Shown one piece after another: positions 14,869 to 18,647 of a stretch of DNA of 64,000 nt. Position 1 is the stretch's first letter. Every line of letters begins with the position of its first letter. This DNA comes from Advenella sp. FME57 (GTDB lineage: Bacteria > Pseudomonadota > Gammaproteobacteria > Burkholderiales > Burkholderiaceae_B): NCBI RefSeq assembly GCF_014897675.1, contig NZ_JABUXU010000010.1, positions 62,001 through 126,000 on the forward strand, written 5' to 3'. Under the pieces are notes generated by a model. It was not told the DNA's origin. It was given only the letters and a program-made list of their open reading frames with translations, and ran no database searches. Made by a program: the position numbers and the translations under genes.

Positions 14869-15128
14869 GCGACCGCCGCTATTGAGGGGCAGCAAATGTG
14901 CTGAATGCGGGGGCAAAACGGAAATAGGGTATAGGAAAGAAAGAAATTCATGCCCTATTGTAAAGGAGGTGGTAACCCACGGAGCGACAATTTCGATATT
15001 TCGCTATTGAAATCAACGACAAAACCCTCGCCGCGCCGTGATACATGGCTTCTAAGGCAGCGTGTTTTGCGAGTATTCATCCCCATTTATGGGGTAGAAC
15101 CGAGCCTTGAACACCAGGAGATTTAAGC

Positions 15129-15211
15129 TGGAGCCGGGACCAGAATCGAACCTGTAGCCCTTGCTGCGGGGAGTTCCCTGTGCTGCACCGGAGTCCGCCT
15201 CGCCATGCCCC
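15129..15211 (-). pseudogene. Degenerate tRNA-like sequence
   Basis: Read on the - strand, 83 bases look like a decayed tRNA of the long-variable-arm class: a recognisable T-arm (GGTTCGATTCTGG), a terminal CCA and a length close to the 85 bases of the tRNA-Leu at 50035. The acceptor arms no longer pair and the anticodon arm is unclear. The shared GAATCGAACC and CCTTGC-GCGGGG stretches (+ strand) suggest descent from a tRNA-Leu. The rest of the 14869-15532 gap holds only the MetR-like site. Confidence 0.4.
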
Positions 15212-15379
15212 GTCTGTCACATCGGTATTGGCAAGGTAAGTTAAGCTTAAAAACTGAGTCATTACCCTTCTTGCATAATGAGTGTGCCGTGGGGCAATGA
15301 AAGGACAGCGAATAGGGAGGGGCACATTGACGTGCCGCTCGGCGCGCTCACCATTCTATGAATGAAGCCGACGAAAGAA

Positions 15380-15392
15380 TGAATTTTATTCA
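15380..15392. promoter_or_regulatory. MetR-like operator before the mesX-mesD unit
   Basis: TGAATTTTATTCA matches the known MetR consensus TGAA-N5-TTCA exactly, including the central T. It lies 140 bases before the mesX start, an expected distance for a LysR-type activator. No metR gene is in the window, so control by a MetR elsewhere is inference. Confidence 0.55.
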
Positions 15393-15532
15393 CTTTAAAT
15401 ATGACTAATGCAATATAGACTGCCGCCTTTGCATCACAAATGTCTAGATTGCTGAAATTAAAAAAAAGAAAATTTGAGCATCGTTGAATAGATAAATGTG
15501 GGTTTTATCCTGGAAATTAAGGCAGCAGCATA

Positions 15533-16516
15533 ATGAGTACAGAGTTTACATTTGCCATTAAGAGCACTTGTTTCAATGAAGACTATCGTCCTTCAGACAA
15601 TACGCGAATCACCACCAACTTTGCCAATCTGGCCAGAGGCGAGAGTCGGCAAGAGAACCTGCGCAATACCCTTAAGATGATTGACAATCGTTTTAATGCC
15701 CTGGCGCATTGGGACAACCCTACTGGCGATCGCTATAGCGTCAACCTTGACATTATCTCAGTTGAAATGCGCTTTGAAGGTCAAAGCAATGATCGCGACC
15801 TGCCTGTGATTGAAATATTAAAGACGAGCGTAGTTGATCGAAAAACCAACGAATGCATTGAGGGCATTGTAGGAAACAATTTTTCTTCTTACGTGCGAGA
15901 TTATGACTTTAGTGTGCTGCTGCCGGAATACGCCAAGCATCAGCCCGAATTCGGCGCGCCCGAGGACTTTGGACAATTGCATGGCAAGTTGTTCAAGAGC
16001 TTTGTGAATTCAAAGACTTACAAGGATAATTTCGCCAAAGCACCTGTTATATGCCTGAGCGTGTCGAGCAGCAAGACCTATCATCGTACTGAAAACCAGC
16101 ACCCCGTGTTGGGCGTGGAATACCACCAAGATAAATATTCATTGACTGACGAGTACTTCAAAAAAATGGGGATGAAGGTCCGCTATTTCATGCCTGCCAA
16201 TAGTGCGGCGCCATTGGCCTTTTATTTTTCCGGCGATTTGCTGCGTGATTATACGGACCTTGAGCTCATTAGCACCATCAGCACGATGGACACCTTCCAA
16301 AAAATTTATCGGCCAGAGATTTACAACGCAAATTCTGCCGCAGGCAAGTCTTATCAGCCGAGTTTGAAGCACCAGGATTATTCGTTAACCCGGATTGTTT
16401 ATGATCGGGAGGAACGTAGCCGGCTGGCGGCCGAGCAGGGAAGGTACGCCGAGGAGCAGTTCATCAAACCATACCGGGCGATTCTTGAGCAATGGTCCGC
16501 GCACTCCCATCTTTGA
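15533..16516 (+). CDS. mesX: MesX (DUF1852), partner of the MesD methionine synthase
   Basis: 327-residue DUF1852 protein, the usual size. In published work on folate-independent methionine synthases, DUF1852 (MesX) is needed together with MesD and oxygen, and it is named as a putative oxygenase. Sequence features include the N-terminal FTFAIKSTCFNEDYRPSDNT and the long conserved C-terminal RIVYDREERSRL. It lies 15 bases upstream of mesD on the same strand, the arrangement expected for the pair. No transmembrane or signal segment is visible, so it should be cytoplasmic. A MetR-like site is upstream. Confidence 0.85.
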   Translation: MSTEFTFAIKSTCFNEDYRPSDNTRITTNFANLARGESRQENLRNTLKMIDNRFNALAHWDNPTGDRYSVNLDIISVEMRFEGQSNDRDLPVIEILKTSVVDRKTNECIEGIVGNNFSSYVRDYDFSVLLPEYAKHQPEFGAPEDFGQLHGKLFKSFVNSKTYKDNFAKAPVICLSVSSSKTYHRTENQHPVLGVEYHQDKYSLTDEYFKKMGMKVRYFMPANSAAPLAFYFSGDLLRDYTDLELISTISTMDTFQKIYRPEIYNANSAAGKSYQPSLKHQDYSLTRIVYDREERSRLAAEQGRYAEEQFIKPYRAILEQWSAHSHL

Positions 16517-16531
16517 AAACTCAAACACACC

Positions 16532-17572
16532 ATGACTACTATTGTGAAAAAATTATTACCCACATCAACGGCTGGCAGCCTGCCTAAACCCGCCTGGCTT
16601 GCCGAACCCGAAAAACTCTGGTCCCCCTGGAAACTGCAGGATGAGGGATTGATCGAGGGCAAGCAAGATGCGTTGCGTCTGTCTTTACAGGAGCAACAGC
16701 ACGCGGGGATTGACATCGTTAGCGACGGTGAACAAACGCGCCAGCATTTCGTGACAACATTCATTGAACACCTGGAAGGTGTGGATTTCGAGAACCGCAA
16801 GACCGTTAGAATTCGTGATCGCTATGATGCGAGCGTGCCGACGGTCGTGGGTGCCGTCGCTCGGCGCAAGCCCGTGTTTGTTGACGACGCGCGGTTTTTG
16901 CGTCAACAGACTAATCAACCGATCAAATGGGCCTTACCGGGTCCCATGACGATGATCGATACCCTGTATGATGCCCACTATCAAAGTCGCGAAAAGCTGG
17001 CTTGGGAATTTGCCAAGATTCTTAATCAGGAAGCCAAAGAGCTGGAGGCTGCGGGTGTCGATATCATCCAATTTGACGAACCTGCGTTCAATGTGTTCTT
17101 TGATGAGGTAAATGATTGGGGCGTCGCTACGCTGGAAAGAGCCATTGAAGGACTGAAGTGTGAAACCGCGGTTCATATTTGCTATGGCTATGGCATCAAA
17201 GCGAATACGGATTGGAAAAAGACGCTGGGATCCGAGTGGCGGCAGTATGAAGAAGCGTTCCCCAAGTTGCAGAAATCCAGTATCGACATCGTCTCGCTGG
17301 AATGCCAAAACTCGCACGTTCCCATGGATCTTATCGAACTGATTCGCGGTAAAAAAGTGATGGTGGGCGCCATTGATGTGGCCACAAACACCATTGAAAC
17401 ACCCGATGAAGTGGCCGATACGCTGCGAAAAGCACTGCAGTTCGTGGATGCCGATAAGCTCTATCCGTGCACCAATTGCGGCATGGCGCCATTGTCGCGT
17501 AGCGTTGCAAGAGGCAAGTTGAATGCGTTGAGTGCCGGAGCGGACATCGTTCGCAGGGAACTGGCAAACTGA
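16532..17572 (+). CDS. mesD: Core methionine synthase MesD (MetE C-terminal-like)
   Basis: 346-residue protein corresponding to the C-terminal catalytic barrel of cobalamin-independent methionine synthase, without the MetE N-terminal domain. Zinc ligands are visible as HIC (AVHICYGYG), the Glu-Cys in VSLECQN, and CTNCGM near the C-terminus. FDEPAF and LPGPMTM are family signatures. The MesD group methylates homocysteine without methyl-folate, using an as-yet undefined methyl donor, and depends on MesX. The tight mesX-mesD arrangement supports this call over a truncated metE. Confidence 0.86.
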   Translation: MTTIVKKLLPTSTAGSLPKPAWLAEPEKLWSPWKLQDEGLIEGKQDALRLSLQEQQHAGIDIVSDGEQTRQHFVTTFIEHLEGVDFENRKTVRIRDRYDASVPTVVGAVARRKPVFVDDARFLRQQTNQPIKWALPGPMTMIDTLYDAHYQSREKLAWEFAKILNQEAKELEAAGVDIIQFDEPAFNVFFDEVNDWGVATLERAIEGLKCETAVHICYGYGIKANTDWKKTLGSEWRQYEEAFPKLQKSSIDIVSLECQNSHVPMDLIELIRGKKVMVGAIDVATNTIETPDEVADTLRKALQFVDADKLYPCTNCGMAPLSRSVARGKLNALSAGADIVRRELAN

Positions 17573-17704
17573 TTTTCTGTCGGGGCATGGTCGTTGCGAA
17601 CCGTTCGTGACGACCATGCACGGGCTAAGGACGGACGTCTGGCAATCTGGCCGGACTGCTTTTCCTTAGCACTTTCAAGCTACATCCAGTATTTCAATTG
17701 CATC

Positions 17705-18214
17705 ATGTCACTTTCCACTACTGCGATTGAGCCTTTGCGTTTTCGCGAAGCGCTCGGGCACTACGCTTCCGGCATCACGGTGATCACATCGCACTTCGAA
17801 GGCGAGCCCATTGGCTTCACCTGCCAGTCGTTTCATAGCGTGTCTATGGACCCGCCGCTGGTGTCGTTCAACGTGATGACTCGTTCGACCAGCTATCCAA
17901 AAATTCGCCAGGCAGGTCGCTTCGTTGTCAATATTCTGTCCGATGAGCAAGTGGCGATCTCCAGGCAGTTCGCCCAGAGAGGCGCGGACAAGTGGCGCAA
18001 CGTCCAGTGGCAGGCATCGCCCCTGGGTAGCCCGATCCTTGCCGGCAGCCTTCACTGGCTTGATTGCGAAATGTACGCTGAATACGCCGCCGGGGATCAC
18101 TTGATTGTTATTGGTGAAGTAAAAGCGTTGAAGCTGCAGGAGGGTGCTTGCTTGCAGCCGTTGCTGTATTTCAAAGGACAGTATCGAAACATCGCCACGC
18201 CTTACGCAGTTTGA
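17705..18214 (+). CDS. Flavin reductase family protein
   Basis: 169 residues with the FMN-binding split-barrel fold of flavin reductases (YASGITVITSHFEGEPIGFTCQSF; PPLVSFNVMTRSTSYPKIR; GDHLIVIGEVKAL). Such enzymes supply reduced FMN to a two-component monooxygenase. It lies 132 bases after mesD in the same direction, so it may provide reduced flavin to MesX. That link is inference from position. The start at 17705 (MSLSTTAIEPL) fits the family; the frame is open further upstream without similarity. Confidence 0.86.
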   Translation: MSLSTTAIEPLRFREALGHYASGITVITSHFEGEPIGFTCQSFHSVSMDPPLVSFNVMTRSTSYPKIRQAGRFVVNILSDEQVAISRQFAQRGADKWRNVQWQASPLGSPILAGSLHWLDCEMYAEYAAGDHLIVIGEVKALKLQEGACLQPLLYFKGQYRNIATPYAV

Positions 18215-18310: not shown

Positions 18311-18338
18311 TTGACATATCGGTAAATTTCGATATAAT
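18311..18338 (+). promoter_or_regulatory. arsR promoter with embedded operator
   Basis: TTGACA (18311-18316) and a perfect TATAAT (18333-18338) are 16 bases apart. The inverted repeat ATATCG-N8-CGATAT (18316-18335) lies between and across them. Transcription should start about 7 bases after the -10 box, at or next to the ATG at 18345, so the message is predicted to be leaderless. Confidence 0.75.
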
Positions 18339-18344
18339 AGAGTT

Positions 18345-18647
18345 ATGGACTTACTTGACATATTCAAAGCCCTCTCGAACCGTACTCGTCTTGATATCCT
18401 GAGACGCCTGAAGGACCCTGTAAATAACTTCCCTCCGCAAGACGAAGGGGACGTTCATACGGTGGGCGTCTGCGTAAGCAGTATCCAGGAGGGTGTTGGA
18501 TTGTCGCAGTCCACGGTCTCTGACTATCTGGCCACTTTGCAAAGAGCGGGCCTGGTTGAAGTCCAACGTATTGGTCAGTGGACCTACTATAAACGCAACG
18601 AAGAAGCCATCAGTGCGCTTGCCGAACTCATCGGCAAAGACCTGTAA
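18345..18647 (+). CDS. ArsR-family winged-helix repressor
   Basis: 100-residue regulator with the ArsR fold: FKALSNRTRLDILRRL at the N-terminus, recognition helix in LSQSTVSDYLATLQRAGLV, and wing in IGQWTYYKRNEEAI. A cysteine occurs only once (VGVCVSSI), so a classical metal site such as ELCVCDL is absent; it may sense another ligand or thiol oxidation. Two matching palindromes lie before this gene and before the next oxidoreductase gene, which argues for autoregulation and control of that gene. Confidence 0.88.
   Translation: MDLLDIFKALSNRTRLDILRRLKDPVNNFPPQDEGDVHTVGVCVSSIQEGVGLSQSTVSDYLATLQRAGLVEVQRIGQWTYYKRNEEAISALAELIGKDL

Follow-up and report, generated by a model that had tools for sequence, protein, structure and literature searches.

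MesD, a core methionine synthase, and its partner MesX were named by Price 2021 (PMC7857596), where complementation of Escherichia coli depended on MesX and on oxygen and not on MetF, and where Sphingomonas without cobalamin required mesD and mesX, again not metF. The same paper remarks on the frequent presence of a putative flavin reductase in the neighborhood, as noted for Acinetobacter and Sphingomonas, and voices the wish for biochemical work on the use of flavin by MesX; the source of the methyl group transferred by MesD is a question posed by these discoverers. Here we describe a unit of this kind, mesX-mesD followed by a flavin reductase gene, in Advenella sp. FME57. It lies in a stretch of 64,000 nucleotides (contig NZ_JABUXU010000010.1 of assembly GCF_014897675.1, positions 62,001 to 126,000 of the forward strand), which is called the window below and whose own numbering is used throughout. 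The window unit has in common with the system of Price 2021 both protein families, their adjacency and, presumably, the oxygen dependence that was shown there.

On the regulatory side, Leyn 2014 (PMC4239095) counts PF08908-metE2 as a well-conserved MetR target and gives the motif as ATGAA-N5-TTCAT; palindrome and target are both shared by the window unit, and the words flavin and msuE are absent from the main text of that paper. In Acinetobacter baumannii, B12 lowers the DUF1852 gene (log2 -8.3) and also a flavin reductase gene at a distance of two locus tags (log2 -2.5; PMC12892962, 2026), and strains bearing MesD escape the toxicity of nitrous oxide (PMC13059711, 2026). The core of the reading discussed below, i.e. 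the flavin reductase idea and control by MetR, is already published in Price 2021 and Leyn 2014, respectively. Two observations are new: the type of reductase differs between MesX clades and includes the unrelated MsuE family, and close orthologues of the reductases are confined to mesX genomes in our sample. To the MetR regulon of Leyn 2014 we add a conserved site before mesX in a beta-proteobacterium. Searches of open-access titles and abstracts brought up no test of flavin use by MesX and no MsuE beside MesX.

The mesX-mesD-reductase locus

The features of the locus, from 5' to 3', are as follows.

15359..15371, + strand: left half-box TGAATGAAGCCGA, 21 bp 5' of the main palindrome, matching in the TGAA half only
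15380..15392, + strand: MetR-type palindrome TGAATTTTATTCA, starting 153 bp ahead of the mesX ATG
15533..16516, + strand: mesX (PF08908, formerly DUF1852), 327 amino acids; Pfam MesX, 616 bits, full length
16532..17572, + strand: mesD, core methionine synthase without the folate-binding domain, 346 amino acids; NCBIfam PRK09121, 712 bits
17585..17619, + strand: 16-pair hairpin in the mesD-reductase gap, a possible attenuator or processing site
17705..18214, + strand: flavin reductase (PF01613 by Pfam), 169 amino acids, ATG start; nearest NCBIfam model HsaB, under its cut-off

The first-pass annotation of this DNA had put mesX and mesD side by side, a flavin reductase behind them and a TGAA-N5-TTCA site upstream, and profiles and coordinates locate all of these as claimed. 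The three genes stand head to tail with the palindrome in front; mesX and mesD are spaced by 15 bp, and mesD and the reductase gene by 132 bp, a gap whose sole match in the genome is itself. The fold of 17560-17710, which includes the gap hairpin, has an energy of -60.6 kcal/mol (z -5.7), and a terminator-like stem follows the hairpin at 17637-17656, so that the reductase gene may be attenuated or expressed separately.

MesX aligns with PF08908 over profile positions 1-323 of 323 (cut-off 25 bits), and is 97-98% identical to MesX of the nearest named relatives, which belong to Advenella. MesD is well over the cut-off of PRK09121 (392 bits), and the N-terminal folate domain of MetE (PF08267) gives 19.5 bits with it, under the cut-off of 27. 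With His, Cys, Glu and Cys as the expected zinc ligands, the candidate motifs HxC and CG, represented by HIC at 215-217 and NCG at 315-317, are found in the window MesD and in 153 of 153 mesD matches; the pattern for the Glu ligand is too loose to count. The protein shares 85-92% identity with the MesD encoded at four loci from Acinetobacter (L095, L109, L113 and L223, a set that does not include A. baylyi ACIAD3523), above the threshold of about 72% identity to Acinetobacter MesD adopted by Price 2021. PDB entry 3RPD, labelled as a B12-independent methionine synthase, matches residues 2-344 with 681 bits, and a structure of MesD thus seems to exist already.

The reductase belongs to PF01613 (148.7 bits, cut-off 27). 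It reaches 179.3 of the 230 bits required by the HsaB equivalog, and seven other NCBIfam models are farther under their cut-offs or lower in bits; its nearest solved relatives are 3NFW and other short-chain flavin reductases. The start was set at ATG 17705, because alignments of relatives begin there, and the mechanical open reading frame begins at TTG 17594. Family and nearest models are shared with the short-chain flavin reductases of two-component monooxygenases (HsaB, HpaC and RutF), from which the window protein differs in staying under every listed equivalog cut-off and in having a presumed partner, MesX, that is not of a known monooxygenase family.

The genome has one metH match and one metE gene, and a LysR-family gene adjoins metE in divergent orientation (G000:C21:379953-380825). 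Both standard synthases are therefore present, together with a metR-like gene, and the MesX-MesD unit is not the only methionine synthase of the cell.

Types of flavin reductase beside mesX

We compared 153 mesX loci, of which 151 are distinct and intact at the start of mesX; L201 (no mesX), L170 (mesX cut off by the end of a contig) and L200 (a duplicate of L037) were left out of the 151. Eleven later loci stand outside the 151-locus tables and are included in the figures for the samples of relatives, phylum and class. A reductase was called linked if it lay between 2.5 kb upstream and 3.5 kb downstream of the mesX start and was typed by its best-scoring query, the families being checked on representatives. 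Two are weak members of their types, L220 with 35% identity to the window type and L225 with 39% to the RutF/HpaC-like type; all others are at least 68% identical.

A linked reductase is present in 95 of 151 loci: the window type accounts for 74, a RutF/HpaC-like member of PF01613 (27% identical to the window type in the one pair compared) for 9, and the MsuE type, an FMN (flavin mononucleotide) reductase of the flavodoxin-like family PF03358, for 12; the other 56 have none of these. Both mesX-linked MsuE copies that were tested pass the cut-off of TIGR03566, and there is no MsuE at the window locus. In a forced global alignment the window reductase is 25% identical to MsuE; the two are treated as unrelated because they belong to different Pfam families. 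The placement of the genes is also type-specific. The 83 PF01613 reductases for which a gap was measured all follow mesD on its strand, at a median distance of 132 bp. In 11 of 12 loci msuE immediately precedes mesX in the same orientation, and the order in the remaining locus, L179, is mesX-msuE-mesD; an annotated plasmid of Acidovorax carolinensis has the order LysR, msuE, DUF1852, methionine synthase. These msuE genes adjoin mesX, unlike MsuE beside sulphonate monooxygenase. Farther out in the flanks, the same search over 1637 kb gave no copy of these types, compared with 95 in the 890 kb near mesX, and profiles built from the reductase matches added none in other loci or more than 4 kb away.

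Frequencies depend on the sample. The 80 nearest named loci, being the top 80 among 346 relatives, lean to the window's clade; 73 of them have a linked reductase (68 of the window type and 5 RutF/HpaC-like) and 7 have none. A sample of related genomes has mesX in 29 of 150, with 8 of the window type, 8 MsuE, 1 RutF/HpaC-like and 12 without. Among 12 plasmid loci, chosen for diversity from 209 records, 1 is of the window type, 2 are RutF/HpaC-like, 2 have MsuE and 7 none. In a sample of 289 genomes from the class of one distant match, mesX was found in 2, one of which had been counted before, and neither has a linked reductase. How often the reductase neighbours mesX-mesD in other genomes had been proposed as a check, and the answer is that in the window's MesX clade it is a closely spaced downstream partner on the same strand, and that different reductases take its place in other clades.

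Orthologues of the window reductase (at least 70% identity, among the matches listed) occur in 8 of 29 relatives with mesX and in 0 of 121 without it (Fisher 8e-7, kinship ignored); one of the eight is incomplete, lying where a contig ends, with 84% identity. The match lists are ordered by E-value and the one for the window reductase covers its upper part, so that short fragments of high identity farther down could escape. The best copy elsewhere, again among the matches listed, is 52% identical (G058). Orthologues of mesX-linked MsuE (at least 76%) occur in 8 of the 150 genomes, all beside mesX, and the best copy elsewhere is 54% identical.

In a tree of MesX, built without L162 (interrupted reading frame), 73 of 74 window-type rows and 11 MsuE rows occupy separate parts, with 69 of the 147 inner branches open, including the branch around the MsuE-bearing part. 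The four reductase states are accounted for by 22 changes, compared with 61.5 in shuffles, and near-copies alone would cluster the labels.

A proposed role for reduced flavin in the MesX step

We favor the reading, at a probability of roughly 0.6, that the unit is an oxygen-dependent methionine synthase, independent of both folate and B12, in which MesX uses reduced flavin for its step. The reductase, judging from its family, would use NAD(P)H to produce reduced FMN or FAD (flavin adenine dinucleotide). With reduced flavin and O2, MesX would oxidise what is probably a common metabolite, releasing or holding a transferable methyl group, and MesD would pass this methyl to zinc-bound homocysteine, as others have proposed for the family. 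A MetR-type activator of the LysR family, bound at the palindrome, which has a second half-box 21 bp upstream, would turn the unit on when homocysteine accumulates. The reductase itself would be exchangeable, other lineages using the RutF/HpaC-like or the MsuE type, and lineages with no mesX-linked reductase may draw on a general cellular one.

The argument rests on the exchange of reductases. A single neighbor gene can persist by chance or through shared control; the placement of an unrelated enzyme of the same activity beside mesX, on the same strand, suggests that the activity itself, i.e. reduced flavin, is what is needed, and we infer that such a replacement would be hard to explain otherwise. 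MesX, the presumed user of oxygen, is the most likely consumer. The first-pass suggestion that MesX uses reduced flavin is thus strengthened by the three types of reductase found beside mesX, and the step from neighbor to cofactor continues to be an indirect one.

A more specific version of this reading is put forward tentatively, at somewhat less than even odds. MesX would be the oxygenase half of a new two-component flavin system, in which O2 and diffusing reduced flavin split a common metabolite and hand out a methyl group, perhaps via C174, along a route free of folate, B12 and S-adenosylmethionine, with the reductase swapped between unrelated families. If true, cells would have an aerobic source of methyl groups that bypasses folate and B12. 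The exchange of reductases turns the discoverers' guess into a specific, testable requirement for reduced flavin, and it names natural enzyme pairs for reconstitution, with the window type, the RutF/HpaC-like type and the MsuE type.

Several observations weigh against the flavin reading and the regulation that goes with it. The 56 loci of 151 with no linked reductase of these types include three, L056, L159 and L218, that end too early downstream to reveal one; L218, taken again as L252, still has none. An even sample of the phylum has mesX in 44 of 398 genomes, the window's own included, and among the other 43 a linked reductase is found in 6 and none in 37; the association therefore belongs to certain clades and not to the whole family. 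Conservation of the reductase beside mesX-mesD, as first supposed, holds in such clades and fails as a general rule. Related genomes are, besides, non-independent observations. By themselves, mesX and mesD restored E. coli metE mutants (PMC7857596), which shows a dedicated reductase to be dispensable and also fits free reduced flavin being supplied by the host. The Pfam scan recognised no flavin-binding family in MesX, and searches with a predicted model of the protein found no close solved fold. As to the regulatory site, 103 of the 150 mesX loci have no exact palindrome in the upstream region, the gap between metE and metR of the window genome has no exact site and two with one mismatch, and the MetR of this genome shares no more than 39% identity with the MetR-like protein from a mesX locus that served as query.

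In the reductase-less loci, a Pfam scan of 105 of the 181 neighbor proteins (from loci with gene calls) was topped by LysR (19) and TauE (7); it was reported for the 25 commonest of 91 families, a range beyond which rare other reductases are possible.

The upstream palindrome and MetR

An exact TGAA-N5-TTCA is present in 47 of 150 upstream regions of 250 bp (30 of 73 in the window's class), compared with a mean of 1.3 and a maximum of 4 in 30 rounds of dinucleotide shuffling, and with 3 of 144 control regions taken 3 kb away. The whole genome contains 73 exact copies, versus 31 of a reversed control, and eight fixed bases are expected about 72 times by chance in 4.74 Mb at equal base use. The genome count is near chance, so a single exact palindrome means little and it is the position that carries weight. 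The left half-box is conserved too: columns -22 to -19 before exact sites read ATGA in 77-83%. Where msuE precedes mesX, an exact site directly before mesX occurs in 0 of 12 loci; before msuE, in 11 loci, there are one exact site, seven with one mismatch and three without, as raw counts. Presence of the exact site in relatives was thus borne out in about a third of the loci and not in the rest. The proposed link of the unit to methionine regulation is upheld by the conserved position of the site and by MetR-like genes, which 60 of 151 loci have in the interval from -3 to +5 kb around mesX (54 upstream, with 7 more copies farther away).

The LysR gene divergent from metE is the best match in the genome to a mesX-linked MetR-like protein, and is the probable MetR, as judged from its location and the 39% identity. 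It is somewhat doubtful that the palindrome is bound by a different LysR-type regulator and not by this metE-controlling MetR. Besides the modest identity and the lack of an exact site between metE and metR, the three mesX-linked MetR-like proteins that were tested are under the MetR cut-off (220, 225 and 295 of 382 bits), which would suit such a regulator; however, MetR is the top NCBIfam match for all three, the motif published for MetR reads ATGAA-N5-TTCAT and PF08908-metE2 belongs to the published regulon (PMC4239095), and the window genome yielded no closer homologue of the MetR-like query.

No riboswitch upstream of mesX was found in the window at the gathering threshold, and lax settings gave chance-level matches. 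A tRNA-like stretch at about 15125-15155 was considered as a sign of a tRNA-linked island and rejected; neither ARAGORN nor Rfam shows a tRNA at this place, and the sole match of the stretch in the genome is itself.

Conserved residues of MesX and other roles for the reductase

Among 150 MesX sequences, H150, H190, the conserved acidic residue E196 near H190, and C174, the only Cys conserved at that level, are kept in at least 98.5%. Reduced flavins are able to reduce iron. These points, together with the lack of a recognised flavin-binding family, could suit MesX being a metal-dependent oxygenase (e.g. with non-heme iron), for which free reduced flavin would only recycle the metal or supply electrons. 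We regard this as unlikely, since conserved His and acidic residues alone do not make a metal site (121 positions, i.e. 117 besides these four, are equally conserved), and the nearest models of the linked reductases, HsaB, HpaC, RutF and MsuE, are those of enzymes that feed reduced flavin to two-component monooxygenases.

The model of MesX, produced by AlphaFold2 with 80 MesX sequences, is of middling confidence (predicted local distance difference test 70.8, predicted template-modelling score 0.78). Foldseek against PDB returned nothing at E <= 0.001 (best 0.076), and a profile search of PDB sequences gave 4 matches with a best E of 0.26. The top rows of VIA-align are mostly GNAT acetyltransferases, at Z <= 4.9, under the level that this tool treats as meaningful. 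Because these scores are weak, we claim for MesX neither a known fold nor a new one.

MsuE is named for sulphonate use, TauE/SafE exporters are found near mesX in 12 of 151 loci and many mesX loci have no linked reductase, and yet it is very unlikely that the reductase is a neighbor retained because both are regulated together when sulphur or B12 is limiting, and that it serves monooxygenases other than MesX, in view of close orthologues found only in mesX genomes and beside mesX, of one msuE inside the mesX-mesD pair, and of the Acidovorax plasmid, whose gene table, perhaps incomplete, lists no monooxygenase adjoining msuE-mesX-mesD.

Neighboring genes and other mesX loci

Downstream of the reductase gene, a sigma-70 promoter with 12 of 12 consensus positions (18311-18345) stands right ahead of an ArsR-family gene (18345-18647), and the inverted repeat ATATCG-N8-CGATAT lies within its spacer and -10 region; the pair of arsR and a quinone oxidoreductase gene looks autoregulated. 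The pair does not seem to be linked to mesX, as arsR appeared in the locus search only in L036, 7.5 kb from mesX.

QueH is found near mesX in 24 loci, with 3 copies farther away, and TauE/SafE has no copies farther away. A MetF-like protein of 484 amino acids with a DUF5981 C-terminus is near mesX in 20 of 151 loci (e.g. L050:3027-4478), with 1 copy farther. In L161 and L175, metE immediately precedes mesX-mesD in the same orientation, accompanied by a MetR-like gene that is divergent, so that folate-dependent and folate-independent synthases apparently share one unit.

The window's genus has two lineages of mesX. The second (L158, L159 and L160) is about 72% identical and has a divergent metR-like gene; no linked reductase was seen in it, L159 ending too early to tell. 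One of the two lineages may have been acquired horizontally. A plasmid collection has mesX in 209 records, 74 of them typed as mobilizable or conjugative, with Pantoea, Acinetobacter, Agrobacterium and Acetobacter the most frequent; some of these 'plasmid' records, 3.6-4.1 Mb long, resemble chromosomes. Two IMG/VR contigs (L238 and L239) encode relatives of MesX that are 66-68% identical.

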